A stretch of DNA of 61,350 nucleotides from NCBI GenBank assembly GCA_031257105.1, contig JAIRPG010000132.1:1-61350 (forward strand), in the 5' to 3' direction. Both the position numbers and the translations under genes were made by a program. Position 1 is the first letter of the stretch. Every line of letters starts with the position of its first letter. Below are positions 18,888 to 57,037 of the stretch, in pieces. Origin of the DNA: Treponema sp. (GTDB lineage Bacteria; Spirochaetota; Spirochaetia; Treponematales; Breznakiellaceae). A model generated the notes under the pieces. It searched no databases. It saw only the letters and a program-made list of their open reading frames with translations, and was not told the origin of the DNA.

Positions 18888-18915
18888 TTGACAGATCGAA
18901 AAAAAGTGATAAACT
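18888..18915 (+). promoter_or_regulatory. Probable promoter of the carbohydrate operon
   Basis: TTGACA (18888-18893) is followed after 16 nt by TAAACT (18910-18915). It lies just after the cysK terminator and about 55 bp before the NHL gene, in an A/T-rich stretch unlike the neighbouring sequence. Confidence 0.6.
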
Positions 18916-18970: not shown

Positions 18971-20446
18971 ATGATTTTCTGTACCATAGCTCTCCTCTTT
19001 CTCCCCCTCTCTTTGGGGGCTGAACCTTCGAATTACACCTACAACTACAACTTTAGCGGCGATACCATGGCTTCCCCGGACCCCTACCGGGTCGTGGACT
19101 ACCTCCTGGGGACCGATTTCGGCGTCGGCCCTTTCCGGGAAGCCCAGGGGCTCTTTATCCGGGAAAACCGCATCTATATTTGCGATACCGGCAATAACCG
19201 GATCGTTCTGTTGGAAGCGGACGATACGGGGGGCTATACCCTCAAGGCCGTGGTATCCTCGGTGCGTATCGGGGAGGAGGAAAGCCTTTTTTCCGGGCCC
19301 CAGGACATTTTTGAGGACGCCAAGGGCTTCCTCTATATCGCCGACACCAACAACGGGCGGATCCTGAAACTCAACCGGGACTGGGGCTTTGTTTCCGCCA
19401 TATTCAGGCCCGATGACGAGACCATCGACCCGGAAATGGATTTTTTGCCCTCTAAGCTCGTGGTGGATAAGACGGGGCGGCTCTACCTCCAGGCGCTGAA
19501 TATGAACAAGGGGCTCATGGAGTTCAACAACCGGGGTGAATTTTCAGGCTTTGTAGGGGCCGAGAAGGTTATGGTCAACCCTATCGACTATTTCTGGAAG
19601 AGCATTGCCACCAAAGCCCAGCGGGAGACTATGGATCTCTTCGTCCCCACGGAATATAACAACCTCCACCTGGATCACGAGGGTTTTATTTACGTGACCA
19701 ACTCGTCATTCACGCTCTCGGACTCGGAGACCGGGAACATTACGGACGTCGGAACTCCGGTAAAACGGCTTACCCCTACGGGGACGGATATTCTCCTTCA
19801 CAACGGCTGGAACGAATTTATTGTAGGAGATACTGCATGGGGGATGCTCGGGCCCGGCGCGCCGAAGGGGGGTTCCCGCTTTGTGGACGTGACGTCCCTG
19901 GAGAACGGCGCGTATGTCTGCCTGGATCAGAAGCGGGGGAGGCTGTTTACCTACGATTCCCAGGGAAATATGCTCTACGCCTTCGGCGGGATGGGGAACC
20001 GGGAGGGGTACTTTCTCTTCGCCTCGGCGCTGGAACACATGGGCTCCTCCCTCTTTGTGCTGGATTCCCAGGCCGGTTCCCTGACCCGCTTCGACCTGAC
20101 CGGCTACGGGGCGGCGATAAACGCGGCTATGGAAGAATACGCGGCGGGGCGCTACCCGGAGTCCGGGGCACGTTGGGAGGAGGTGCTCAAAATGAACGGA
20201 AACTACGATTTAGCCTACGTGGGCATTGGGCGCGCCGCCTATCAACAGGGAGAATTCGAAAAAGCCATGTACTATTTCAAGATAAAGTACTCGGTGGAAA
20301 ACTACGCGGCGGCTTTTCAGGCTTACCGGAAGGAATGGGTTGAACGGAACCTCTGGATCATTGTGCTGGCTCTGGGGCTTCTTTTTGTGGCGCCGCCGCT
20401 CTGGCGATCCGGGGCGAAACTCGTAAAAAAAATACAGGAAGCGTGA
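18971..20446 (+). CDS. Exported NHL/beta-propeller protein with C-terminal anchor
   Basis: The 491-residue protein begins with a hydrophobic signal (MIFCTIALLFLPLSLGA). NHL-type blades follow, with repeats like RIYICDTGNNRIVLLE and LYIADTNNGRILKLNRDWG. A TPR-like helical segment lies near 370-440 (YAAGRYPESGARWEEVLKMN), then a C-terminal membrane segment (LWIIVLALGLLFVAPPLW). It is probably an extracytoplasmic binding or scaffold protein held in the inner membrane, and it heads the carbohydrate ABC operon. The start region is odd: ATG at 18960 opens the four-codon frame M-N-K-T whose TGA overlaps the ATG at 18971. The signal peptide lacks the usual N-terminal basic residues, so a small indel or translational coupling is possible. 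Confidence 0.75.
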   Translation: MIFCTIALLFLPLSLGAEPSNYTYNYNFSGDTMASPDPYRVVDYLLGTDFGVGPFREAQGLFIRENRIYICDTGNNRIVLLEADDTGGYTLKAVVSSVRIGEEESLFSGPQDIFEDAKGFLYIADTNNGRILKLNRDWGFVSAIFRPDDETIDPEMDFLPSKLVVDKTGRLYLQALNMNKGLMEFNNRGEFSGFVGAEKVMVNPIDYFWKSIATKAQRETMDLFVPTEYNNLHLDHEGFIYVTNSSFTLSDSETGNITDVGTPVKRLTPTGTDILLHNGWNEFIVGDTAWGMLGPGAPKGGSRFVDVTSLENGAYVCLDQKRGRLFTYDSQGNMLYAFGGMGNREGYFLFASALEHMGSSLFVLDSQAGSLTRFDLTGYGAAINAAMEEYAAGRYPESGARWEEVLKMNGNYDLAYVGIGRAAYQQGEFEKAMYYFKIKYSVENYAAAFQAYRKEWVERNLWIIVLALGLLFVAPPLWRSGAKLVKKIQEA

Positions 20447-20450
20447 CATC

Positions 20451-23129
20451 ATGGGAAACAAATTTGCAGGGGGCCGGGGAGGCCGCGCCTCCCCGGCGGG
20501 GGCGCGGGGGCTGCGCCCCCGCCTCTTCGCCTTACTGTCACTCGGCTGCGTGGCGATCGGCTGCGCCCTTATATCCTGCGACAAGCCCAGCGGGGGAACC
20601 TCAAAACGCATCGTCCTCTATACCAACGAGGGCGGCGCGGAACCCCTCAGCCTGGAAAACGACAAACTCCGGCTGGACTATTTCCCCGACACCACGGAAA
20701 TCGTCCTTTCCGTCAAAGATACGGGGGCGCAGTGGCGTTCCATCCCCGAAAACGCGGCGGCGGATCCGGCGGCCACGGTTATCACCAAATCCGCCCTTAG
20801 ATCGCCCTTTACCCTGCTCTATACCAGCTTCTTCCAGCAGCACGAGGGGACTCCGCGGGTAAATAAAAGCGAGGTAAGCCTTACGGCTTTCGCGGACAGC
20901 GTGGAACTTAAACAGTATGAGTACGCTCTCGTGGATGGCGGCATCGAAGTGAACTACACGGTGGGCAAGGCGGATCGGATCTATTACTATCCTATTGCCG
21001 TCCCGGAAGCGCGGATGGAAGCGTACCTGGAACGGCTTCCCCCGGAAAACCTAAAAGAAGCCCTGCGGGTGATAGACTCCTGTTACCGGCTCTACGACAT
21101 CAACAACCTGCTCCCCACGGACGACAAGAGCGCGCTCCTGCGGGATTACCCGGATCTGGCCCGGGGGCAGACGCACATCCTGCAAACGATACCCAATTTC
21201 CTCAAAGCCGAGCTTGAGGGGCTCTTTAACGCGGCGGGTTATACTATGGAAGAATACGAAGAAGACCTTACCCGCGCCCCTGTCCCTGTGGAGGCGGAAA
21301 CCCCGGTTTTCAATGTGACCCTCCGTTACGAGCTGGACGGCGGCTCCCTCCTGGTGAGCGTTCCCTTCGACAAGATCGGCTGGCGCAAGCAGTTCGCGCT
21401 TACCCAGCTCAAGTTACTTCCCTTTTTCGGGGCCGGCGGCCTTGAAGACGAGGGGTTTATGCTCGTACCCGACGGCCCGGGGGCGCTGGTGTATTTTAAC
21501 AACGGGAAGCAAGCCCAGAACGCCTATAACCTCCCGGTATACGGCTGGGACGGCGGACAGGTAAGGCGGGTTAAAATAACCGATGCCCAGGCGGCGTTCC
21601 CGGCCTTCGGCATCGAAAAGAACGGGGAAAGCATCCTTGCCCTCATTGAGGAAGGGGCATCCTACGCCTCGATCATCGCGGACGTATCCGGCAGGGATTG
21701 TTCCTGGAATTCCGTTGCCCCCCTCTTTACCATCGTCCACGGAGAGGAGATTGAGTTCGGCTTCGGCGCAAATAAAGACGATATTGTCCATTACGAAAAC
21801 ACGCTTCCCGAAGGGGAACGGCTCCTCGTGCGCTATACCCCTTGCGCCGGGGACGGCTATGTGGGCATGGCAAAGGAATACCGGGCGCGGCTTTTGGAAC
21901 GGTATCCCGCCCTGAGAAACGGCGGAACTTCCGGCGGAGTTTCCGGCGGAAGTTCCGGCGGGAAGGTTCCCGTGGCGGTTGAGATACTGGGGGCGGTGGA
22001 AAAAATCCAGCAGGTCGTGGGCTTTCCTGTCAACCTGCCCCTCAAGCTCACGTCGAGCCGGGAGGCGGAAGGGATGATCCGGGACTTCGCCGGCTGGGGC
22101 TGGGAAAACGCCGTGATAAAACTGAACGGCTGGTTCAACGGGGGCGTGGAACATTCCGTGCCTTCCGTCCTCCGCCCGGTGAATGAACTGGGTTCTTCCC
22201 AGGATTTTGGCGCCCTCCTCGCCGCCGCCCGGGAAGGGGGTATGGCTGTTTTCGCGGAGGCGGATTTCCTGTATATGCGGAAAACCGGGCGTGGCGGCGG
22301 GTTCAGTCTGGCCCGGGACGCGCTGATGGCGCTCAATCGGGAGCGGATGGAAGCGTATCCTTACAACGTGGTCGGCTACGGCCAGGATCGCTGGGATGAC
22401 CCGGCCTATCTGTCCCGGCCCGCGTATATGGCCGGCCTGGTATCCTCTTTTGCCGCCGCCGCGAAGGGTTACAGCATAGAAAATATCGCCTTTCGGACTA
22501 TCGGCTCGGTACTCGCGGCTGACTACCGCGAAGATGACGCCGTCAGCCGGGAAGCGGCGATTGGGGTACAACAGAAGATTCTGGCGGAGCGGAAAAGCTC
22601 CGGCGCGAAGGTGATGGTCAACGGAGGCTTTGAGTACACCCTGCCGTACGCGGATTTTATCACCAACATGACCCTGGAGGATCAAAAGTTCGGCATAATG
22701 GACGCGGCGGTTCCCTTTTATCAGATCGCCATCCACGGCCTCGTGCCCTACACGGGGACGGCGATCAACCTGGCGGAAGATTACGCCCGGTATCTGCTGC
22801 GGACTATTGAAACCGGCGCGGGGCTCTCCTTTAGCTTTATGGGCGAATCGAGCGGGGTCTTGCAGAACACCCGGTTCCAGCGTTACTTCTCCAACGAATA
22901 CCGGCGCTGGGCCGCCGAAGCGGACGGCCTGTACCGGCGTTTTGTCCGGGATTTCGGCGGCCTCTACGGGCAGACCATCGAGAACCACACGGTTCTCGCG
23001 CCTGAGGTGACGGTGACGGAATATGCGGACGGGACGCGGGTGCTGGTGAACGCGGGGAAAAGCGCCTTTGACTACGAGGGCCGGATTATCGCCGGCGGAA
23101 ACTACGAAGTGATACGGAGCGAACCATGA
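20451..23129 (+). CDS. Large lipoprotein, DUF5696-type (possible glycosidase fold)
   Basis: The 892-residue protein has a signal peptide ending in the lipobox L-I-S-C (C43) and is probably anchored outside the cytoplasm. The N-terminal half (about 50-470) looks beta-rich. The C-terminal half (about 520-860) contains phrases typical of a TIM-barrel glycosidase-like fold, such as AVIKLNGWFNGG, MAVFAEADFLY and KVMVNGGFEYTLPYADF. I associate this with DUF5696 proteins found beside sugar ABC transporters in Paenibacillus and relatives (from memory). Activity is unproven; candidate acids include the E in FAEADF. The signal peptide has a G/R-rich extension encoded by two GC-rich hairpins. A 12-bp in-frame repeat at 21920-21962 encodes S-G-G units. 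It is tightly packed between the NHL gene (4-bp gap) and the first permease (ATGA overlap). Confidence 0.75.
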   Translation: MGNKFAGGRGGRASPAGARGLRPRLFALLSLGCVAIGCALISCDKPSGGTSKRIVLYTNEGGAEPLSLENDKLRLDYFPDTTEIVLSVKDTGAQWRSIPENAAADPAATVITKSALRSPFTLLYTSFFQQHEGTPRVNKSEVSLTAFADSVELKQYEYALVDGGIEVNYTVGKADRIYYYPIAVPEARMEAYLERLPPENLKEALRVIDSCYRLYDINNLLPTDDKSALLRDYPDLARGQTHILQTIPNFLKAELEGLFNAAGYTMEEYEEDLTRAPVPVEAETPVFNVTLRYELDGGSLLVSVPFDKIGWRKQFALTQLKLLPFFGAGGLEDEGFMLVPDGPGALVYFNNGKQAQNAYNLPVYGWDGGQVRRVKITDAQAAFPAFGIEKNGESILALIEEGASYASIIADVSGRDCSWNSVAPLFTIVHGEEIEFGFGANKDDIVHYENTLPEGERLLVRYTPCAGDGYVGMAKEYRARLLERYPALRNGGTSGGVSGGSSGGKVPVAVEILGAVEKIQQVVGFPVNLPLKLTSSREAEGMIRDFAGWGWENAVIKLNGWFNGGVEHSVPSVLRPVNELGSSQDFGALLAAAREGGMAVFAEADFLYMRKTGRGGGFSLARDALMALNRERMEAYPYNVVGYGQDRWDDPAYLSRPAYMAGLVSSFAAAAKGYSIENIAFRTIGSVLAADYREDDAVSREAAIGVQQKILAERKSSGAKVMVNGGFEYTLPYADFITNMTLEDQKFGIMDAAVPFYQIAIHGLVPYTGTAINLAEDYARYLLRTIETGAGLSFSFMGESSGVLQNTRFQRYFSNEYRRWAAEADGLYRRFVRDFGGLYGQTIENHTVLAPEVTVTEYADGTRVLVNAGKSAFDYEGRIIAGGNYEVIRSEP
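20473..20522. repeat. Two adjacent GC-rich hairpins inside a signal-peptide region
   Basis: GCCGGGGAGGC/GCCTCCCCGGC (20473-20483 and 20487-20497) is a perfect 11-bp stem with a 3-nt loop. GCGGGGGC/GCCCCCGC (20504-20511 and 20515-20522) is a perfect 8-bp stem with a 3-nt loop. Both are translated as part of residues 8-25 of the DUF5696-type protein. Confidence 0.85.
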
Positions 23130-24067
23130 AGGCTGTTTTTGTGAATACGGGAAACGGGCGGGGCGCGCGTTTGTCGATAGGCGGCAAGCGGGCCGTCACG
23201 GGACTGCTCTTTATTTCCCCCTTCCTGATTGGCTTTTTGGCCTTCATGGCCATTCCGCTCTTTCAGTCCCTGGCGATGGCCTTTAGCGAGGTGGGGCTGG
23301 ATAACGTGAAGCACGCCTTTACCCTGAGCTTCCGGGGGCTGGGAAACTTCAACAACGCCTTCTTTGTGGACGCCGGGTTCAACCGGAGCTTGGTTAGCGA
23401 GCTTATGCGGATGCTGGCCTTTGTGCCCTCCGTTATTATTTTCAGCATTTTCACGGCCCTGCTGATGAATCAGGAGTTTTGGGGAAGGGCCTTTGCGCGG
23501 ACGGTTTTTTTCATGCCGGTTATTTTGTCCGCGGGAGTTTTCGCTTCTATCGAGGCGTCTACCCACGCCGCGTCATCCCTTCTGGACATGGCCCGGAGTA
23601 ACTTTTACGTCGGCGGTTTTTTATCAGAGATTGTCCAGGAAATTCTCCAGGGAATTAACAACAACTTGAATGTAAATATTGCGGGCTATGTGCTTCTGGC
23701 GGTAAGCCGGGTGTATACGATTGCCATGGCTTCGGGGATACAGGTAGTGATATTCCTTTCCGCCCTCCAGGGGATTCCGCCCAGCATGTACGAGGCTGCG
23801 GAACTGGAAGGCTGCGGCAAATGGGAATGTTTCTGGAAAGTTACCTTCCCCCTTTTGGTGCCGCAGATATTTGTGGTGGTGGTGTACAGCATTGTGGACT
23901 TTCTGACCGGCGGAATCAACGCGGTGATGAACAATATCGCCGGAGATTCAAACCGGTTCAGGTGGGGAGAAGCCTCGGCGAAGGCGTGGATTTACATGGC
24001 GCTGGTAATAGCGATTCTCGGCATTATTACGGCGCTTCTTTCAAAGAAGGTACGGTACAATGACTAA
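23126..24067 (+). CDS. Sugar ABC permease (MalF-like), pair 1
   Basis: This 313-residue inner-membrane protein has six predicted membrane segments and the permease EAA loop EAAELEGCGKWECFWKVTFP near residues 223-242, which docks on an ABC ATPase. The fold matches MalF/LacF-type carbohydrate permeases. It overlaps the DUF5696-type gene by ATGA and its partner permease by 8 bp, so the pair is probably made in equal amounts. Confidence 0.9.
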   Translation: MKAVFVNTGNGRGARLSIGGKRAVTGLLFISPFLIGFLAFMAIPLFQSLAMAFSEVGLDNVKHAFTLSFRGLGNFNNAFFVDAGFNRSLVSELMRMLAFVPSVIIFSIFTALLMNQEFWGRAFARTVFFMPVILSAGVFASIEASTHAASSLLDMARSNFYVGGFLSEIVQEILQGINNNLNVNIAGYVLLAVSRVYTIAMASGIQVVIFLSALQGIPPSMYEAAELEGCGKWECFWKVTFPLLVPQIFVVVVYSIVDFLTGGINAVMNNIAGDSNRFRWGEASAKAWIYMALVIAILGIITALLSKKVRYND

Positions 24068-25007
24068 GCGCGATACGGCTTCTTTGTCCGCGCGTCTGCC
24101 GCGGTTCATGAAAAAAAAGGTTCTCGGCGCGGTATTCCGGATCTGCCGGGGGCTTTTGGTCGCGGGGATGTGCTTTATGATCCTCCAGCCGGTGCTGGTA
24201 AAGCTCAGTTCCAGCTTCAAGAGCGTCGAGGACGCGCGGGATTCCACCGTGCAAAACATTCCCCGGCGTCTTTCGCTCGAAAATTACGTGTATGTTTCCC
24301 GGGCCATATCGTATCCCGCGAACTTTTTGCGCTCCCTGGCCGTGGTGATCCCCGGGGCGATCCTGCAGATCGCCGCCTGTACCCTGGCGGCTTACGGCTT
24401 TGCCCGCTTCCGCTTCCCCGCTCAGAACCTCTTATTCTTCCTGGTGATTATCATCATCGTGACGCCCGCTCAGATGATTGCGAGCCCCCTGTACCTTAAC
24501 TTCCGGTTCTTCGACGTGTTCGGCATCTTCCGCCTTATCACCGGGCAGCCCCTCAACCTCCTGAACAAACCTATTTCATATTACCTGGTATACGCGACGG
24601 GGCTGGGGTTAAAGGGCGGCTTGTATATCTTTATTATGCGCCAGTATTTTCTGGGCGCGCCGAAAGAACTGGAAGAAGCCGCCTGGGTGGACGGCTGCGG
24701 CAGCCTCCGCACCTTCGCGCAGATCATGCTGCCTGACGCGATGCCGATGATCACCTCCTGTTTTTTATTTTCCTTTGTCTGGCAGTGGGCCGATGGCTAC
24801 TATGTCTCGTTGTTTATGCCCCGCTACGGCGTGCTGGCAAACACGATAGGAGGCCTTTTGGGGGAAGTGTGGAATTTTTTGACCGTCCTGAATCAGAACC
24901 GGCTTTATACCGGGTTTTTGATGTGCATCGCCCCGCCGCTTTTGGTTTACCTTTTTGCCCAGCGGCTCTTTGTGGCGAGCCTTTCCCAGACGGGGATCAA
25001 AGCCTAA
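24060..25007 (+). CDS. Sugar ABC permease (MalG-like), pair 1
   Basis: The 315-residue partner permease has six membrane segments and an EAA loop beginning EAAWVDGCGSLRTF near residue 205. The C-terminus has the MalG-like F-V-A-S-L-S-Q-T-G-I-K-A end. It should form the heterodimeric pore with the preceding gene. Its stop (TAA) overlaps a possible upstream ATG of the binding-protein gene. Confidence 0.9.
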   Translation: MTKRDTASLSARLPRFMKKKVLGAVFRICRGLLVAGMCFMILQPVLVKLSSSFKSVEDARDSTVQNIPRRLSLENYVYVSRAISYPANFLRSLAVVIPGAILQIAACTLAAYGFARFRFPAQNLLFFLVIIIIVTPAQMIASPLYLNFRFFDVFGIFRLITGQPLNLLNKPISYYLVYATGLGLKGGLYIFIMRQYFLGAPKELEEAAWVDGCGSLRTFAQIMLPDAMPMITSCFLFSFVWQWADGYYVSLFMPRYGVLANTIGGLLGEVWNFLTVLNQNRLYTGFLMCIAPPLLVYLFAQRLFVASLSQTGIKA

Positions 25008-25030
25008 TGTTTAGGAGGCAAAGAAAGACT

Positions 25031-27886
25031 ATGTCCATCACACACCGAATATTCGCCGCCGCCCTATTTTTTGCCCTTGCCTCCTGTACCGGAAGCGCGG
25101 ATCACGGCGCGGGCGCCGGGCCTGAACCGTCCGCCTCAGGCGGCAGGAATACCTACGCGGCTTACCGGGAACGGCACGCAAACGCGGCCCCGGCGGAGGC
25201 GGACATTCCCCTCGATATTTTCGCCTACGCTGAAGGCTCCGGCATCGAAGAGCTTGCCGGCTTCCAGGGGGAAGAACGGGCGCTCCTCTCCGGAGAAGAA
25301 AGCTTTGTCGAGTACCTCGTCCAAGTGGATCATCCCGGATTCTATACCTGCTACCTTGAATATTTCCCCGTAGCCTCACGGGGCATCTCCATTGAACGGA
25401 GCTTTTCCATCGACGGCGAAGTTCCCTTCCTCAATGCGGAACGCCTGAGCTTTTCCCGGATCTGGGGAGACGGCGGGCCGGTAAGAACCGACAACCAGGG
25501 AAACCAGATCCGCCCCACTCAGGTGGAGCTTCCCCGCTGGGAGACGGCCTTTTTCCGCGACCCCACCGGGTATAGCGCCGAACCCTACCGGTTCTACCTT
25601 TCCCAGGGGGAGCACCGGATCCGTCTTACCGGGAGCGCCGAGCCTATGGCTATCCGGCGCTTCGAACTGCGGGCCCCAACCTCGGAACAGCCCTACGCGG
25701 AGTACGCGGCGGGGTTCGATACGAGCCGCTTCCAAAACCGGGACAAAACGCTCATCGTGAAAGTCCAGGGGGAAGACGCCGCCCGCCGTTCCGATCCCGC
25801 CCTCTACGCCCGCTACGACCGCTCTTCGGGACAGACCGAGCCGGCCAACCCCGCGCAGATCACCTTGAACATGATAGGCGGCGACCCCTGGAAAACCCCG
25901 GGGCAGTGGATTGAATGGGAGGTCGAGGTTCCCGAAGACGGGATGTACCGGATCTCCCTCAAGGTCCGGCAAAAATACAACCGGGGCTTTGTGTCAAGCC
26001 GCGCGGTACTTATTGACGGGATTATCCCCTGTACGGAACTCCAGGCCGCGCCTTTCCGTTACCGGAACGCCTGGGATCTCTCTACCCTGCGGGATGCGGA
26101 GGGCAACGATCTGTACTTTCCCCTCAGCCGGGGAACCCACCGAATCAGGCTCCAGGTAACGCTGGGGGAACTGGGGGGGATGCTGGAAACCATGGAAGAG
26201 TCGATATTCCGGCTCAACGGTATGTACCGGAGGATCCTGGTGCTGACGGGGGCGGAGCCCGATCCATTGCGGGATTACCGCCTGGAAAGAGTCTACCCCG
26301 ATATAATCGAGGCGATGGCGGCGGAGAGCCGGGTTCTCTATAAACTGGCGGACGATCTGACCCGGTATTCGGGGGAACGGAGTTCCCAGTCTGCGGCGAT
26401 CCTGACCCTGGCCCGGCAGTTGGAACTTTACGCGGAACGTCCCGATAAGCTGCCCCCCGCGTTGAGCGGCTTTAAGGGGGCCATCGGCTCCCTGGGGGAC
26501 GGCATCATCGCCCTTACCGAGTCCAAGCTGGATGTGGATTACATCCTTGTTTCCGCGGCGGAGGCGAAACTGCCCAAGATGCGGGAAAATTTTATTACCG
26601 CCGCCTATCATGAACTCCGTTCTCTGGCGGCCTCTTTTATGGTGGATTACAACAACCTGGGGGACGTGTACGAGGGAAGCGGCGCGGTGGATGTATGGCT
26701 GCTGACCGGGCGGGATCAAAGCACGATTGTGAAATCTATGGTGGACGACAGCTTTACCCCCCAGACGGGGATTCCGGTGAACGTCAGGCTGGTGGAAAAG
26801 GGGGTGGTGATGCCGGCGGTGGTGGCCGGCACGGGGCCGGATGTCGCCATACCCATGGCCGTCTCGGAACCGGTAAACTACGCCCTGCGGGACGCCGCGA
26901 TTGACCTTTCCCAGTTTGATGATTATCCGGAGGTGGCCAAACGTTTCCACCGGAGCGCCGTTGTACCCTTTGAATACAACGGCGGGGTCTACGCGCTCCC
27001 CGAAACCCAGAACTTCAGCATCATGTTTTACCGGACAGACATCTTGGAAGAACTGGAACTGGAGCCGCCTGAAACCTGGGATGACCTTTTAAGCATGATG
27101 CCCGTGTTGCAGAAGAACAACATGAATGCGGGTATTCCCTCTATGGCGTCGGGGACCGATATGTCGGGCTACCTGATCACGCTCTACCAGCGGGGAGGCG
27201 CCCTGTACGACCCGGAAGGATCCCGGACGATTCTGGACCGGGAAACGCCCCTGGCCGCCTTTGAGGCATACACCCGCTTCTTTACCCATTACATGGCCCC
27301 GCAAAGCTTTGACTTTATCAACCGGTTCAGGAGCGGGGAAATCCCCGTGGGAATCGCGGATATCGAGAATTTTAATAAGCTGGAAGTGTCCGCGCCGGAG
27401 ATCCGGGGGCTCTGGCAGTTCGCCCTCCTGCCGGGAACCTTCCGGGAGGACGGAAGGTTAGACCGTTCCATTACGTCAACCGTAACGGGGTCTATCCTGT
27501 TTTCCAGGCCCAAGCGGAGTGAAAGCTCTCTGCGGGCATCTTGGGAGTTTATGAAATGGTGGACAAGCGCGGAAACCCAGGCCCGTTACGCCCGGGAACT
27601 GGAGAGCGTAATGGGCGCCGCCGCCCGCTACGCCACGGCGAACACGGAAGCTTTTGATCGGCTGTCCTGGCGGGTTTCACAATTGACGGCGCTGCGGGAG
27701 CAGCGTTCCTGGGCGGTGGGGATTCCGGAAGTGCCGGGGGGGTACTATGTAAGCCGGAATATCACGAACGCGGTGCGGAAGGTACTGAACGAGCGGGTGG
27801 ATACCCGTGAAACCCTGCTCAACTACAACCGCCTAATTAACGAAGAGCTGATCAAAAAGCGGAAAGAATTCGGACTGGAAAAATAG
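25031..27886 (+). CDS. Giant extracellular solute-binding lipoprotein (family 1)
   Basis: The 951-residue protein is about twice the size of a normal sugar-binding protein. The signal peptide ends L-A-S-C (C19), so it is a lipoprotein. Two related beta-sandwich modules (about 90-220 and 285-400) share the pattern G-x-Y ... IDG ... L-S-x-G-x-H-R-I-R-L and look like carbohydrate-binding modules. After a helical linker (400-545), the C-terminal 400 residues form a family-1 solute-binding domain (VPFEYNGGVYALPETQNFSI, MFYRTDILEELEL). It probably captures a glycan and passes it to the flanking permeases. The start was chosen for the lipoprotein signal and AGGAGG 12 nt upstream; ATG at 25007 in the same frame is an alternative. 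Confidence 0.82.
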   Translation: MSITHRIFAAALFFALASCTGSADHGAGAGPEPSASGGRNTYAAYRERHANAAPAEADIPLDIFAYAEGSGIEELAGFQGEERALLSGEESFVEYLVQVDHPGFYTCYLEYFPVASRGISIERSFSIDGEVPFLNAERLSFSRIWGDGGPVRTDNQGNQIRPTQVELPRWETAFFRDPTGYSAEPYRFYLSQGEHRIRLTGSAEPMAIRRFELRAPTSEQPYAEYAAGFDTSRFQNRDKTLIVKVQGEDAARRSDPALYARYDRSSGQTEPANPAQITLNMIGGDPWKTPGQWIEWEVEVPEDGMYRISLKVRQKYNRGFVSSRAVLIDGIIPCTELQAAPFRYRNAWDLSTLRDAEGNDLYFPLSRGTHRIRLQVTLGELGGMLETMEESIFRLNGMYRRILVLTGAEPDPLRDYRLERVYPDIIEAMAAESRVLYKLADDLTRYSGERSSQSAAILTLARQLELYAERPDKLPPALSGFKGAIGSLGDGIIALTESKLDVDYILVSAAEAKLPKMRENFITAAYHELRSLAASFMVDYNNLGDVYEGSGAVDVWLLTGRDQSTIVKSMVDDSFTPQTGIPVNVRLVEKGVVMPAVVAGTGPDVAIPMAVSEPVNYALRDAAIDLSQFDDYPEVAKRFHRSAVVPFEYNGGVYALPETQNFSIMFYRTDILEELELEPPETWDDLLSMMPVLQKNNMNAGIPSMASGTDMSGYLITLYQRGGALYDPEGSRTILDRETPLAAFEAYTRFFTHYMAPQSFDFINRFRSGEIPVGIADIENFNKLEVSAPEIRGLWQFALLPGTFREDGRLDRSITSTVTGSILFSRPKRSESSLRASWEFMKWWTSAETQARYARELESVMGAAARYATANTEAFDRLSWRVSQLTALREQRSWAVGIPEVPGGYYVSRNITNAVRKVLNERVDTRETLLNYNRLINEELIKKRKEFGLEK

Positions 27887-27892
27887 GAGGGA

Positions 27893-28828
27893 ATGATGAG
27901 TTTAAGGCGCTTTGCGGTGCAACAACAACGTCTGATCGGCAAAACCTTGAAGGAGGCTTGGCACAAGCGGCTGGGATACCTGTTCTTGCTGCCCTATGCG
28001 GCGAGCTTTTCCGTATTCGTGGTGGCCCCGGTGGTGATTTCTCTCTTCTACAGCTTTACCTACTACAACATTTTGCAGCCTCCGAAATTTATCGGCCTGC
28101 GGAATTACATCAACCTGCTCCTGGCGGACGATGTGTTCCTGATCGCCGTTAAGAACACCTTCGTCTTCGCGGTCATCACCGGGCCGCTGGGGTATTTCGC
28201 CTCGTTTATTTTCGCCTGGTTTATCTACGAAATTCCCGCCCGGATCCGGTCGTTCGTTATCCTCGTGTTCTACGCCCCCTCTATCTCCGGGTCGGTTTAT
28301 GTGCTCTGGGCGCTCATCTTTTCCGGGGACGCCTACGGCTACATAAACGGGATGCTCATGCGGCTGGGGATAATCAACGGGCCCGTACTCTGGCTTACCG
28401 ACCCCAAGTATATGATGACCGTCGTCATCATCGTGATCCTCTGGATGAGCCTGGGAACCGGCTTTCTCGCCTTTGTCGCCGGGCTCGCCACGGTGGACGA
28501 GACGCTCTACGAGGCGGGACTGGTGGACGGCATCAGCAACCGCTGGCAGGAACTGTGGTTCATCACCCTGCCGAACATGAAGGGTATGCTCTTCTTCGGC
28601 GCGGTCATGGCTATTACCGGCTCCTTCGGAGTAGGGGGGGTGGGCGCGGCGCTGGCCGGCTTTCCGAGTACGGACTACGCCGTACACACGGTGATGAACC
28701 ATCTGGACGATTACGGTACCTTGCGTTTTGAAATGGGCTACGCCTCCGCCATCGCCACGCTGCTGTTTCTTGTCGCGCTATTGTCCAAATCGCTTGTTCA
28801 GAGACTATTGAACCGGGTAGGAACCTAA
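27893..28828 (+). CDS. Sugar ABC permease (MalF/LplB-like), pair 2
   Basis: The 311-residue permease has six membrane segments and an EAA loop (YEAGLVDGISNRWQELW) near residue 206. AGGAGGGA precedes the start by a few bases, and ATG at 27896 is an equally good start. With the next gene it makes a second permease pair around the same binding protein, an unusual doubling. Confidence 0.9.
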   Translation: MMSLRRFAVQQQRLIGKTLKEAWHKRLGYLFLLPYAASFSVFVVAPVVISLFYSFTYYNILQPPKFIGLRNYINLLLADDVFLIAVKNTFVFAVITGPLGYFASFIFAWFIYEIPARIRSFVILVFYAPSISGSVYVLWALIFSGDAYGYINGMLMRLGIINGPVLWLTDPKYMMTVVIIVILWMSLGTGFLAFVAGLATVDETLYEAGLVDGISNRWQELWFITLPNMKGMLFFGAVMAITGSFGVGGVGAALAGFPSTDYAVHTVMNHLDDYGTLRFEMGYASAIATLLFLVALLSKSLVQRLLNRVGT

Positions 28829-28839
28829 GGAGTTATACT

Positions 28840-29733
28840 ATGGAAGCCAAGGCGCAAAGCGTGGGAAAACACAAACGAAAATTCTGGAAACGCCGGAAGC
28901 CGAACCGGTCGGTGGGGGGCGATATGTTCATCACCGCGGTAATCGGGGTCTTCGCCATATTTTTCGTGTGGCCCCTGGTGTATGCGGTCAACAACGCCTT
29001 CAAGCCCCTGAGCGAGATATTTCTTTTTCCGCCCCGGCTCTTTGTGCGGCAGCCGACGCTGAATAACTTTCAAGACCTCTTCGTGATCATGGGGAGTTCC
29101 TGGGTTACTTTTTCGCGGTATGTCGTCAACAGCCTGCTTATCACCACCGCAGGTACCCTGGGGCTTATTGTAATCGCGTCCCTGGGGGCCTATGTGGTCT
29201 CTAAGATGCGGGTGCCCGGCTGGTCCCTCTTTATGAAGCTGGTAATAACCTGCTTGATGTTTTCCGGCGCGGTAACGGCGATTCCGAACTACCTGATAAT
29301 GACGAAATTAGGCTGGATTGATACCTATTGGGCGGTGATCGTGCCGGCCATGACCATGCCCATGGGCTTTTTCCTCCTCAAGCAGTTTATCGACACCATT
29401 CCGGATACGCTGCTGGAGGCGGCGAAGATAGACGGAGCCCAAGAACTCCTGATCTTTACGCGGATCGTGCTGCCGATGATAAAGCCCGCCTGGCTCACGG
29501 TGCTGATATTTTCGGTACAGGCCCTCTGGAACGCCTCGGGTTCAACCTATATCTACTCCGAACAGCTCAAGACCCTGCCCTACGCCCTGTCCCAGATTGT
29601 CGGCGGGGGGATAGCCCGCACGGGGGTGAGCGCGGCGGTAACGTTGTTTATGATGATTCTTCCGCTGGGAGTTTTTATTTTTTCTCAGAGCAATGTGATG
29701 CAAACCATGGCCAATTCGGGAATCAAGGAATAG
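28840..29733 (+). CDS. Sugar ABC permease (MalG-like), pair 2
   Basis: The 297-residue protein has six membrane segments and an EAA loop LEAAKIDGAQELLIFTRIVL near residue 193. The basic N-terminus (K-H-K-R-K-F-W-K-R-R-K) is cytoplasmic. It follows its partner by 11 bp. No ABC ATPase is encoded in the operon, so a shared MsiK/UgpC-type ATPase elsewhere is expected. Confidence 0.9.
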   Translation: MEAKAQSVGKHKRKFWKRRKPNRSVGGDMFITAVIGVFAIFFVWPLVYAVNNAFKPLSEIFLFPPRLFVRQPTLNNFQDLFVIMGSSWVTFSRYVVNSLLITTAGTLGLIVIASLGAYVVSKMRVPGWSLFMKLVITCLMFSGAVTAIPNYLIMTKLGWIDTYWAVIVPAMTMPMGFFLLKQFIDTIPDTLLEAAKIDGAQELLIFTRIVLPMIKPAWLTVLIFSVQALWNASGSTYIYSEQLKTLPYALSQIVGGGIARTGVSAAVTLFMMILPLGVFIFSQSNVMQTMANSGIKE

Positions 29734-29741
29734 GGGGGCGT

Positions 29742-30392
29742 ATGAAACAGATTGCCGGCAATCAGTTGTGGGCGAGCCTGCGCTACGCCTTCTATGTCGC
29801 GGTGCGTCCGCTGGACGGGTTCTGGGATTTGATCCACGAGAAGCGCGGTTCCTTGGGGGCGGCCCATATTATTGTTGTGGCCGCGATAGTCGTGGAGATA
29901 CTGACGGTAACGCTGACTAACATCCAGTTTAGCAACTGGGGGCTGTACATGGAATACTTCAACGTCTCTATGGTGGTGTTGCAAGTGCTGGTTCCCCTCC
30001 TGCTCTGGACTTTGTCGAACTGGAGCCTGACGACCCTGATGGACGGCAAGGGGCGGTTCCACGAGATCTACATGGCCACGGCCTATGCTCTTACCCCTTC
30101 TATCATCATCAAGGCGGTTCTGATCCTGCTCAGCCACCTCATCACCCGCCAAGAAGGGACGGTATACCAGGTACTGGCCGCTTTTTCGCTGCTCTGGTCG
30201 GGGATGCTGATCATGGCGGCGATGATGATGATCCATGACTATAGTCCGGCGAAAATGCTTTTTTCCTCCTTCCTTTCTATTGTGGGAATGGGGGTCATTG
30301 TGTTCATCTTCCTGATTTTTTTCAATATGATTAGCGACATGATAGCGTATCTTATCTCCATCGTGAAAGAAATTCGGTTTAGGATGGGCTGA
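29742..30392 (+). CDS. Yip1-family membrane protein
   Basis: The 216-residue protein has about five membrane segments and resembles the Yip1 domain family, with the helical N-terminal stretch R-P-L-D-G-F-W-D-L-I-H-E-K-R-G and L-T-P-S-I-I in the core. Such proteins occur next to DUF5696-type genes and sugar permeases in Gram-positive bacteria (from memory). The role is unknown; assembly or stabilisation of the permease complex is one guess. The start has a weak purine-rich region (TAGGGGGGCGT). It is the last gene of the operon and is followed 5 bp later by a dispersed palindrome. Confidence 0.7.
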   Translation: MKQIAGNQLWASLRYAFYVAVRPLDGFWDLIHEKRGSLGAAHIIVVAAIVVEILTVTLTNIQFSNWGLYMEYFNVSMVVLQVLVPLLLWTLSNWSLTTLMDGKGRFHEIYMATAYALTPSIIIKAVLILLSHLITRQEGTVYQVLAAFSLLWSGMLIMAAMMMIHDYSPAKMLFSSFLSIVGMGVIVFIFLIFFNMISDMIAYLISIVKEIRFRMG

Positions 30393-30397
30393 ACGAG

Positions 30398-30434
30398 TGT
30401 CTGTCTACAAAGCAACCGGCTTTGTGGACAGACA
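30398..30434. repeat. Dispersed palindrome, copy A
   Basis: Two 16-nt arms (TGTCTGTCTACAAAGC and GCTTTGTGGACAGACA) flank the loop AACCG, with one T-G wobble. Related copies are at 37923-37959 and 49061-49097. It lies right after the Yip1-like gene. Confidence 0.9.
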
Positions 30435-30453
30435 AGAACTAACATGTTTATAA

Positions 30454-30483
30454 TTGATCTATTTTAAGAAAACATAATACAAT
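30454..30483 (+). promoter_or_regulatory. Probable promoter of the second sugar ABC operon
   Basis: TTGATC (30454-30459), 18 nt, then TACAAT (30478-30483), in an A/T-rich gap. The leader would be about 60 nt and contains the hairpin at 30498-30516. Confidence 0.45.
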
Positions 30484-30552: not shown

Positions 30553-31880
30553 ATGAAGAAAATAGTGTTGACAATTATGGCTGTTTCCATGTGCGCCGGC
30601 GCAGCCTTTGCCGCCGGTAGCCGGAGCGCTTCCAACTCTACGGGGGGGGGGGGGGGGCTATAGAAGTAACCAACCCCCATTATAAATCGGGCCAGAATGT
30701 CGGCGGTCTCTTTTTCCTGCCCCAGGTTGAGCGGTTCAACCAGAAGTACGCAGGAAAGTACAAGCTCACCATCGAGGAACTGGTTCAGGATATGTACGCC
30801 CCTAAAATGCAGCAACTGAGTCAGCAGGGCAAGCTGCCCGCCCTGGTTGAAGGGGGCGCTTATGAATGGCTCACCGAATTTGTCATCCCGGGTAATATGT
30901 TCGTGGATCTCAAGCCCCTGTTGGACAGCACTCCCGAATTAAGGGCTCTGGCGATTCCGGAAGCGATAGCGTATAACACGGTAAATGGCGGCAAAATTTT
31001 TTCGATCACCTATCCGGTGGTACGGCCTATCGGTCTGTACTACAACCCCAAACTCTACCAGCCTTCCAAGCCCATGTCCCAGATGAGCTGGGAACAGGTT
31101 GCCGCTGAACTGGGGAACAACAAGATCGCCTTTATGACCGGCGAGAACGCCTGGACCACGGTGCTGGTGCTGTCTTCGCTTATCGCCAAAGAACCGGGTG
31201 GCGTTGAATGGCTTGCCTCCGGCGCGAATACCAATCCCCGGCTGACGGATTATAACAACCCCATCATGATCGGCGCGGTTACAAAACTCCAGCAGTTGCT
31301 CCAGAAAAACGCCTCTGCCAATACCCTGGGCGCGGCTTATGCCGATGCCGCCAACAGCTTTATGTCCGCCCGTTCCGCGATTATCGCCAACGGCAGTTGG
31401 ATGATTGGCGATTTCGCCCCGGATGCTCAGGCAAAATGGTCCAACGGGTTTAACGGCGCCGATGTGCGGGCCGACGTATTCCCCGGCAATGTGGCTATCG
31501 GCGGCCCGGGCATCGGCTACAGTTGGTGGATTCCCAACACCGCCACTCCCCAAGAACAGGAACTGGCCAAGGCGTTTATCGCCTTTATCATGTCCCAGGA
31601 CGAGCTTGAACGGTATATGCTGGCCGAAGGCGGCGTTTCTCCCCGCATGACCGCGACCCAGAGCTTCCTGGCTGAACGGGCCAAAAATAAACTGATGGAC
31701 GAATATGTCGGCGCGGTTAAGCCCGACACGATCCTGTCGTACAGTTGGGGCGATGTGATTCCTAATTCGGTTTACGAGACCGAATGGGGACGGCTCCTGC
31801 CGCTGCTGATCAACGGCACCTACACCCCTGCGCGGTTCTGCCAGGAACTGACCATTAAGGCCCAGGAAACCATCCGGTAA
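30553..31880 (+). CDS. Sugar ABC solute-binding protein, frame broken by a G16 tract
   Basis: This is a family-1 solute-binding protein for the permeases that follow. ATG 30553 has AGGAGGA 6 nt upstream and opens a clear signal peptide (MKKIVLTIMAVSMCAGAAFA). After codon 30 the frame runs into 16 consecutive G (30642-30657) and stops at TAG 30661. The rest of the gene, from A-I-E-V-T-N-P to the stop at 31880, is intact in the next frame and includes NMFVDLKPLLDS and GPGIGYSWWIPN. A tract of 17 or 14 G would restore a 442-residue protein, so the gene is either phase-variable and OFF here or carries a sequencing error. It is not a decayed pseudogene, because the body is fully open. Confidence 0.85.
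30642..30657 (+). repeat. Poly-G tract (16 G), slippage site
   Basis: Sixteen uninterrupted G lie 90-105 nt into the binding-protein gene, just after the signal peptide. The next longest G runs I noticed in the window are about seven bases. Confidence 0.95.
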
Positions 31881-32006: not shown

Positions 32007-32894
32007 ATGATGAAAACAGCGGCTATCAGCAGGCTGGAACGCCGGAACCTGCCCTGGATTTACGTTTTCCTGGCCCCTACGCTGATCATGTTCCTCATGT
32101 TCTACCTGTGGCCCATTTTCACCGTGATATACACCAGCTTTACCAAATGGAACGGCATGACCAGCCCCCAATGGACAGGGCTGGTCAACTACCAGCGTCT
32201 TTTTTCCATGAAGAGTTTTCTTATCTCCTTAAAAAATCTGGGGCTTTGGGCGCTGATCGCCGCGGTGTTTCACACCCTCTTCGGCGTTTTGGTGGCCCTG
32301 GCTTTTTTCAAGGCTCCGCCAGGCTGGAAAATCGTCCGCACTGTTTTTATGATCCCCAATGTGATCTCCGGCGCGGCATGGGCAATGATCTACCGGTTCC
32401 TCTTTAATAACGATTTTGGAATCCTCAATAATATCATTAGAATCTTTAACAGAGATTTTAACGTGAACTGGTTTTACGAAAGCCCCGCGGCTTTTTGGGC
32501 CATCACCTTTACCTGGCTTTTCTATGCCGTGGTCATCTCCCTGGTGGTTTTGGCCGACCTCATGGCCATATCCAAAGATGTTCACGAGGCGGCCACTATT
32601 GACGGCGCTTCGGGCTGGCAGGTGATGACCCGCATAGATCTTCCCCTCTGCCGCTTCTCTATCGGCACTTCGGTCATTATGGGGGTAACTTCCCGAATCT
32701 CCATGTACGAGGCCATTGCCCTTACCTCCCGGGGCGGCCCGGGTGACGACACCATGAGTCTTTCGCTGATCCTGGTGAAAAATATTTCCGACTACAACTA
32801 CGGCCTTGCCAACGCCGCCGCAATGGTGATGCTGATCCTGGGCGCCGGAATCATGCTGGCCTGTAACCGGGCCTTCCGCATGAATGATCAGTGA
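32007..32894 (+). CDS. Sugar ABC permease (MalF-like), second system
   Basis: The 295-residue protein has six membrane segments and the EAA loop HEAATIDGASGWQVMTRIDL near residue 193. It forms the pore with the next gene and takes substrate from the G-tract-controlled binding protein. ATG 32010 is an alternative start. AGGAG comes from the second 39-bp repeat. Confidence 0.9.
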   Translation: MMKTAAISRLERRNLPWIYVFLAPTLIMFLMFYLWPIFTVIYTSFTKWNGMTSPQWTGLVNYQRLFSMKSFLISLKNLGLWALIAAVFHTLFGVLVALAFFKAPPGWKIVRTVFMIPNVISGAAWAMIYRFLFNNDFGILNNIIRIFNRDFNVNWFYESPAAFWAITFTWLFYAVVISLVVLADLMAISKDVHEAATIDGASGWQVMTRIDLPLCRFSIGTSVIMGVTSRISMYEAIALTSRGGPGDDTMSLSLILVKNISDYNYGLANAAAMVMLILGAGIMLACNRAFRMNDQ

Positions 32895-32906
32895 TAAGGA
32901 GTGATC

Positions 32907-33767
32907 ATGAATACCTACGAACAGAAAAAAGGCTGGTATCTGCTGCAAAAAACAGCGGTTTATTTTCTGATCTACCTGCTTTTTGCTTTTGTGGCGCTGG
33001 TTTCCGTGGGGCCCCTGATCTGGGTAGTGATCTCTTCGTTCAAAACCAACGGTGAAATTCTCACCGCCCCTTTTGCGCTGCCCCAAAAAATCGATTTTGG
33101 CCCTTACCTGGAAGTGATCCGGGGGAACAACTTCATGCGTTACGCGCTCAATTCGGCGCTTATCTCCACGGTCGCCACCGCGCTTTCCCTTGTCATGTAC
33201 GCGATGGGGGCCTATGTCTTTGCGCGGTTTAACTTTCCCCTCAAAAATATACTCTTTACCCTTTTTGTGCTGACCATGCTGATTCCGGGGCATACCAAAA
33301 CCCAGCCGATTTTTTACATTATCATGAAGCTGGGGCTCTACGGCACCCTTCCGGGGATAACCCTGGTGTACCTATCCGGCGGTATTGCCATGAGCCTTTT
33401 TGTTATGCGATCCGCCTTTGCCGCTATACCCAAAGAGATGACCGAAGCCGCCGTCATCGACGGCATCGGTTTTTTCCGCAACTTTTGGCAGATGCACGTG
33501 CCCTTGGCAAAGAGCGGTCTTGCCACCGCCGGTATCCTGATGTTTCTGGGGAACTGGAACGAGTACTTCTTTGCTTCCCTGCTTTCTGCGTCAGCTTCCA
33601 CCCGCACCCTTCCCTACGCTCTGGCCTTTTTCACCGAGGCCTATTCCTACGATTACACTAAAATGTTCGCCGCCCTCACGCTGATAATTCTGCCGGGGAT
33701 CATTATCTACGCCGTATCACAGGAACAGGTGCAGGTTTCTATCACCTCTGGGAGCGTTAAGGGATAA
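32907..33767 (+). CDS. Sugar ABC permease (MalG-like), second system
   Basis: The 286-residue permease has six membrane segments and the EAA loop TEAAVIDGIGFFRNFWQMHV near residue 178. The ATG at 32907 is preferred over GTG 32901 because AAGGAG (32896-32901) is 5 nt before it. It ends the operon and is followed at once by a terminator. Again no ATPase gene is present. Confidence 0.9.
   Translation: MNTYEQKKGWYLLQKTAVYFLIYLLFAFVALVSVGPLIWVVISSFKTNGEILTAPFALPQKIDFGPYLEVIRGNNFMRYALNSALISTVATALSLVMYAMGAYVFARFNFPLKNILFTLFVLTMLIPGHTKTQPIFYIIMKLGLYGTLPGITLVYLSGGIAMSLFVMRSAFAAIPKEMTEAAVIDGIGFFRNFWQMHVPLAKSGLATAGILMFLGNWNEYFFASLLSASASTRTLPYALAFFTEAYSYDYTKMFAALTLIILPGIIIYAVSQEQVQVSITSGSVKG

Positions 33768-56533: not shown

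Positions 56534-57037
<504 letters not shown>

Follow-up and report, generated by a model that had tools for sequence, protein, structure and literature searches.

An eight-gene set from Treponema with two permease pairs and NHL, Yip1 and DUF5696 partners is a candidate glycan importer shared with Bacillota

Eight genes in the window (the whole 61,350-nucleotide stretch of Treponema sp. DNA analysed here) are read, with a probability of roughly 55%, as encoding a glycan importer in which a fixed membrane core is usually joined by a second module, with a shared ATPase and with the DUF5696 protein as receptor. The core would consist of the propeller/TPR protein tethered to Yip1, the membrane-anchored DUF5696 protein and the permease pair p3/p4; the usually joined module would consist of the giant binding protein and p6/p7. 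Taken as a whole, it would be a pair of CUT1-type importers attached to a membrane-anchored propeller/Yip1 hub and to a pseudo-glycosidase that binds glycans. The set is real and widespread, and gut and soil bacteria from a second phylum have it in nearly the same form.

All eight open reading frames between positions 18971 and 30392 are intact, lie on one strand and almost abut (Table 1), the gaps in operon order (NHL-DUF5696-p3-p4-SBP-p6-p7-Yip1) being 4, −4, −8, 23, 6, 11 and 8 bp. Pfam and NCBIfam agree with the labels that the original prediction had given to the eight genes. The protein of the first gene scores 34.8 bits as NHL against a Pfam cut-off of 20 and also carries TPR; DUF5696 (PF18952) scores 563 bits against a gathering cut-off of 25.6 and covers positions 3–612 of the 612-position profile; Yip1 (PF04893) scores 46.1 bits against 28.6 with a query that began 9 bases inside the gene. 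BPD_transp_1 was matched four times, each time above the Pfam cut-off (p3, p4, p6 and p7), and SBP_bac_8 (64 bits) is confined to residues 574–855 of the 951-residue protein.

Table 1. Features of the eight-gene operon and its flanks, in window coordinates.
Feature	Position	Strand	Basis and remarks
Promoter-like site TTGACA-16-TAAACT, TG preceding second hexamer	18888..18915	+	Consensus match only; ~56 bp 5' of first gene
NHL beta-propeller + TPR protein, 491 aa	18971..20446	+	Pfam; N-terminal signal, C-terminal membrane segment at ~residues 460-478
DUF5696 (PF18952) protein, 892 aa, lipobox LISC	20451..23129	+	Pfam, model; GH129-type three-domain fold; T683, N724, T738 at mapped catalytic acids
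Permease p3, BPD_transp_1, MalF/UgpA-like	23126..24067	+	Pfam/NCBIfam; EAA loop intact
Permease p4, BPD_transp_1, UgpE/MalG-like	24060..25007	+	Pfam/NCBIfam; EAA loop intact
Giant solute-binding lipoprotein, 951 aa, lipobox FALASC	25031..27886	+	Pfam, model; four-part domain layout
Permease p6, BPD_transp_1	27893..28828	+	Pfam/NCBIfam; EAA-type loop (EAG)
Permease p7, BPD_transp_1	28840..29733	+	Pfam/NCBIfam; EAA loop intact
Yip1-domain polytopic membrane protein, 216 aa	29742..30392	+	Pfam
Second promoter-like site	30425-30454		Consensus match only; precedes next transport operon

The same set is conserved in other genomes, which rules out a chance arrangement. Relatives of the DUF5696 protein were recovered only with an alignment query; searches with the single sequence gave no match in viral contigs and none in genome contigs. 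Among named genome contigs, a profile-type search confirmed 508 relatives, and the best 80 of these, which are near the query by choice and come from Treponema, Lachnospiraceae, Butyrivibrio, Clostridium and others, were taken as loci for comparison. The culturable Butyrivibrio hungatei DSM 14810 and Clostridium sp. 12(A) are among the carriers of a set. All eight genes are adjacent and in one order in 66 of these best 80 of 508, the remaining 14 being cut by contig ends. The usual order is giant SBP-p6-p7-NHL-Yip1-DUF5696-p3-p4, and that of the window is a rearranged form of it. In evenly drawn genome samples of the two phyla, DUF5696 was matched at E under 1e-90 in 33 of 348 genomes of Bacillota and 12 of 296 of Spirochaetota, and above the family cut-off in 35 and 14, respectively; weak PF18952 matches, present in many genomes (mostly profile positions ~265–440, E 1e-3 to 1e-6), were treated as background and left uncounted.

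The comparison was then extended by 42 loci, of which 32 came from the Bacillota sample, six were extra copies from four genomes among the 80, two came from Spirochaetota and two from named plasmids. The core NHL-Yip1-DUF5696-p3-p4 is present in 40 of the 42, and the other two are cut by contig ends. All eight genes are adjacent in 32, and the giant-protein module heads the set in 28 of these and ends it in four; locus L205 was scored as incomplete although only its p7 reading frame is split. Two loci carry the core without a giant-protein module nearby, within ~5.6 kb on either side in L193 and within flanks of 4.2 and 5.6 kb in L196. NHL and Yip1 form a single protein in 25 of the 42 further loci, with NHL first in all 25, and among the copies surveyed it is solely in the window that Yip1 is detached from NHL. 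The expectation that the neighbors travel together elsewhere is thus borne out by both surveys (66 of the best 80 of 508 loci, and the core in 40 of 42), and so is the suggestion of similar sets in Paenibacillus: a plasmid of Paenibacillus cellulosilyticus (L140) carries the set with ugpC just 5' of it and with the propeller and Yip1 proteins fused. On the Butyrivibrio fibrisolvens plasmid pNP243 the order is GH43-SBP-p-p-NHL-YIP1-DUF5696-p-p-SBP-SBP. Around the P. cellulosilyticus set lie four genes annotated as LLM-class flavin oxidoreductases, together with genes for two binding proteins and for aldo/keto reductases, a strange neighborhood for an importer of plant glycans.

The window copy is itself unusual. 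A normal-size binding protein follows p4 in 66 of the best 80 of 508 loci (median gap 117 bp), elsewhere as many as five such genes come after the set (L194), and three do so in one paralogue in this genome (C101); the window copy has none after p4. The lone binding protein noted in the original prediction is therefore not a defining trait, since most relatives have an additional one of normal size at this place, and the description of four permeases around one binding protein fits the window copy and not the system. The binding-protein gene 3' of Yip1 (30559-31880) was considered as the missing normal-size partner of p3/p4 and rejected for now: it gave no BLAST or HMM match to that family at the limits used, and it has a permease pair of its own (32007-33767), heading a separate transporter operon. 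The frame of this gene (start near 30559, body 30792-31880) is disrupted by a run of 16 G at 30642-30657, a tract that is either phase-variable or misassembled. A near-perfect inverted repeat at 30400-30431, in the gap between Yip1 and this next operon, overlaps the −35 element of an 11/12 promoter-like site; it is possibly an operator, or a terminator without a T run. Elsewhere in the window lies a class A RNase P RNA (56534-57035, 218.7 bits).

The 951-residue protein was modeled at pLDDT 77.8 and is laid out as two beta-rich domains (~44–377), a helical part (~380–496) and an MBP-like part (~500–951), the binding domain occupying about the last 450 residues. This domain is nearest to oligosaccharide-binding proteins: its fold matches are 5ci5 and beta-1,2-gluco-, cycloisomalto- and cycloalternan-binding proteins, and its nearest solved sequence relative is Lin1841 (E 6.8e-21), a beta-1,2-gluco-oligosaccharide-binding protein (5ysb-5ysf) whose 397-residue chain, in contrast, has none of the N-terminal domains of the giant protein. 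An SOGP-type gene stands beside one paralogous set; no such gene lies near the window set, and so the Lin1841 substrate is not transferable to the window copy. Neither Pfam nor NCBIfam named a family for the N-terminal parts (one chance hit, E 0.12), and the Foldseek list for the giant protein was filled by the binding domain and thus barely probed them. We infer that these N-terminal domains may bind glycans.

The ATPase-coupling loop is present in 112 of 131 p3 proteins, 128 of 129 for p4, 107 of 110 for p6 and 111 of 111 for p7, and all four window permeases have an EAA-type loop. No ATPase gene lies within the eight-gene operon, which suggests that both pairs are driven by one shared ATPase of the UgpC/MsmK type whose gene lies elsewhere. 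The genome assembly (86% complete) holds one OB_MalK protein, UgpC by NCBIfam, on a separate contig (C127), and three further TOBE_2 matches. An ATPase encoded apart is a trait of MsmK/MsiK systems. With the CUT1 importers MalEFGK, UgpABCE and MsmEFGK the set has in common an SBP_bac_1/8 domain, MalF/MalG-like permeases with EAA loops and probably an ATPase encoded apart; it differs from them in having two permease pairs, a 951-residue binding protein that is longer by ~460 residues at its N terminus, and three obligate partners that are not transporters.

Anchor type was scored by a home-made rule that leaves signal-peptide cleavage aside. By this rule a lipobox-like Cys is present in 12 of 115 DUF5696 proteins and 5 of 104 giant proteins, and an N-terminal hydrophobic segment without a lipobox in 102 of 115 and 93 of 104, respectively. 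Because most relatives carry such an anchor, most DUF5696 and giant proteins are probably anchored to the cytoplasmic membrane on its outer face, near the permeases, which in a spirochaete is the periplasmic side. For the same reason the surface location that had been proposed for the complex is doubtful in a spirochaete.

Evidence on the substrate comes from neighboring genes. From 262 candidate flanking proteins, 103 (64 loci of Treponema and Clostridia) were drawn at random and scanned with Pfam; AraC regulators (12), GH43 (11), GH10 (9) and GH5 (4) were the most frequent families, followed by GH3 (3), GDSL esterases (3), GH115 (2) and GH39 (2). These flanking enzymes look like a xylan-type set. 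Genes for a LacI regulator and an SOGP-domain phosphorylase (GH94-type, a homologue of beta-1,2-oligoglucan phosphorylase) come after the C42 set of this genome, and a GH95 gene lies near its C83 set; in one relative (G013) the set directly adjoins a GH27 gene. Among the reading frames scanned, none beside the window set encodes a glycosidase or a sugar regulator. The neighboring enzymes point to glycan import, with substrates that probably differ from copy to copy, and the glycosidases flanking the sets of relatives lend support to the glycan uptake proposed at the outset. Passages of a report on Butyrivibrio transcriptomes (PMC6344614) mention induced binding proteins beside GH43 and GH10 genes, which could not be tied from those passages to the eight-gene set.

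Ten DUF5696 matches were found across this genome. The ends of contigs C34, C123 and C25 overlap exactly, by 90 and 56 bp, and the three are taken to be one locus; C123 and C25 were accordingly rejected as two extra sets, leaving eight: C138 (the window), C101 (whose contig starts inside NHL), C34/C123/C25, C83, C67, C42, C58 and C1. The joined locus (L229, L026, L024) has the order giant SBP-NHL-Yip1-DUF5696-p3-p4-SBP; p6/p7 are absent next to its giant gene, whose product may use permeases encoded elsewhere. In a FastTree of 79 DUF5696 sequences, the detail of which is limited by long branches and uneven composition, the eight copies of this genome need four changes that are forced by the starred branches (at least four lineages). 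Three copies group with the family of the window, three stand beside the copy of Bacterium D16-50 (G339), one groups with a Lachnospiraceae copy and one sits on a long branch. The tree fits repeated transfer between phyla together with local duplication, and so supports transfer, which the original prediction had raised as one possibility. In three genomes DUF5696 matches outnumber those of the giant protein, fragments included (G428, 22:10; G386, 11:6; G408, 11:5). One of the 22 matches in G428 (Bacillota, ~3 Mb) has an in-frame TAG, and around a partial DUF5696 match in G386 (C5:103998-104681) an open frame of 24,576 aa was reported, possibly an artefact.

Structure prediction had been proposed as a way to ask whether the DUF5696 protein has a carbohydrate-enzyme fold, and the answer is favorable. 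The AlphaFold model (pLDDT 84.2, pTM 0.82) has as its top solved match the GH129 enzyme NagBb (5wzr; Z 29.7, rmsd 3.9 Å, 580 residues aligned), followed by ZgGH129 (5opq; Z 29.5, rmsd 3.9 Å, 588 aligned). Both matches span all three domains of the model, and later ones (blood-group galactosaminidase, GH13, GH36 and GH101) fall below Z 20. A profile of 43 homologues compared with the PDB likewise gave ZgGH129 (E 1.7e-16 and 2.1e-16) and NagBb (0.013–0.02). The protein thus has a full-length GH129-type glycosidase fold, sharing the beta-sandwich, TIM barrel and C-terminal beta domain of NagBb (5wzn/5wzr) and of ZgGH129/DagB (5opq, 8rzg-8rzk). Unlike those enzymes it is membrane-anchored and permease-linked and lies outside the GH129 Pfam model: only PF18952 was found in it, and Glyco_hydro_129 (PF11308) was unmatched at E 0.001.

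Whether this fold works as an exo-glycosidase, shortening the glycan ahead of its import as the original prediction suggested, turns on the catalytic acids, and we consider such activity improbable. Passages of the ZgGH129 report (PMC5698469) give these as D202, D486, E517 and E531, with D486 equivalent to NagBb D435. Alignment with hhalign through the ZgGH129-like sequence L139 places D486 at window residue 683 and E517 at 724 (E 3.4e-4, probability 38%, a weak mapping); HMMER places E517 at 724 and E531 at 738, through a segment that alone scores below zero. By this weak profile mapping, which leaves D202 (from the other subunit) unplaced, the window copy has Thr, Asn and Thr in place of the mapped acids, making trimming by it unlikely. 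Residues were counted over 93 aligned rows with one gap, two of these rows (L027 and L033) coming from a single gene. Asp occupies position 683 in 71 of 92 homologues, Glu (6), Asn (6), Ser (4), Thr (4) and Gly (1) also being tolerated there, whereas 724 is Asn in 77 of 92 and 738 is Thr in 81 of 92. We infer that the active site is degenerate in the window copy, and possibly throughout the family. However, D691, D751 and E787 are conserved (86, 86 and 90 of 92 rows), as is D367, and all four are present in the window protein; with the frequent Asp at 683, the weakness of the mapping and a GH129-type fold over the full length, other copies may be catalytic.

In the importer that we favor, DUF5696 would accordingly be, in the window copy, a glycan-holding receptor and not an enzyme; the N-terminal domains of the giant protein would capture longer chains for delivery to p6/p7, NHL-Yip1 would be a scaffold holding the two permease pairs together, a shared UgpC/MsmK-type ATPase would power both, and paralogous sets would be tuned to different glycans. 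The roles of Yip1 and NHL are guesses. A simpler arrangement, two ordinary CUT1 importers in one operon with NHL, Yip1 and DUF5696 as accessories without a common complex, seems to us rather unlikely, though some features speak for it: both permease pairs belong to the ordinary MalF/MalG type, and giant SBP-p6-p7 and DUF5696-p3-p4-normal SBP act as movable blocks, the former standing before the core in 28 of the 32 complete further loci and after it in 4. Yet the non-transporter genes are linked to p3/p4 in every surveyed locus not cut by a contig end, and fusion of NHL to Yip1 in 25 of 42 loci exceeds what operon convenience would give. Because of this fusion and strict linkage, assembly into one complex is plausible; the cores without a giant module (L193, L196), the excess of DUF5696 over giant proteins in three genomes and the giant protein without p6/p7 indicate that the modules need not form one complex. 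It is very improbable that the set senses or handles the envelope glycans of the cell itself rather than food glycans. The window copy does lack an adjoining catabolic enzyme in the reading frames scanned, and membrane-anchored propeller and Yip1 proteins are, to our knowledge, unusual in sugar importers, but the patchy distribution (12/296 Spirochaetota and 33/348 Bacillota genomes at E under 1e-90), the transfer, the expansion in copy number and the flanking xylanases, GH43, GH95 and GH27 fit nutrition better.

Beyond the glycan importer that we prefer, we put forward tentatively the stronger proposal of a new ABC importer architecture, in which a propeller-TPR-Yip1 hub and an ex-glycosidase receptor would be obligate subunits joining two permease pairs and at least one binding protein, and which would be a chassis open to re-targeting that has passed between Spirochaetota and Bacillota and gained copies inside genomes. 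A Gram-positive polysaccharide utilisation locus (gpPUL) is defined by a transporter, a glycosidase and a regulator in one locus, and NHL, Yip1 and DUF5696 are not part of that definition. The Clostridia loci share with the Gram-positive PULs of Butyrivibrio and relatives an ABC importer with GH43, GH10 and esterase genes and an AraC regulator; the window copy differs from them in having no glycosidase or regulator adjoining in the reading frames scanned. In the open literature, outside which most subscription journals lie, we found no description of the eight-gene set and no publication on DUF5696, and among the matches listed none linked Yip1 to sugar ABC importers. The set is an importer assembly of known parts that is apparently undescribed there.

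If the preferred reading is right, a common class of importer would explain part of the uptake of plant glycans by gut and rumen Clostridia, Treponema and Paenibacillus; one sampled genome has 22 DUF5696 matches and this one eight sets. DUF5696 and a group of bacterial Yip1 proteins would gain a testable role, the former as an example of a glycosidase fold put to new use within a transporter, and the genes would provide markers with which to annotate the glycan uptake of uncultured gut bacteria.
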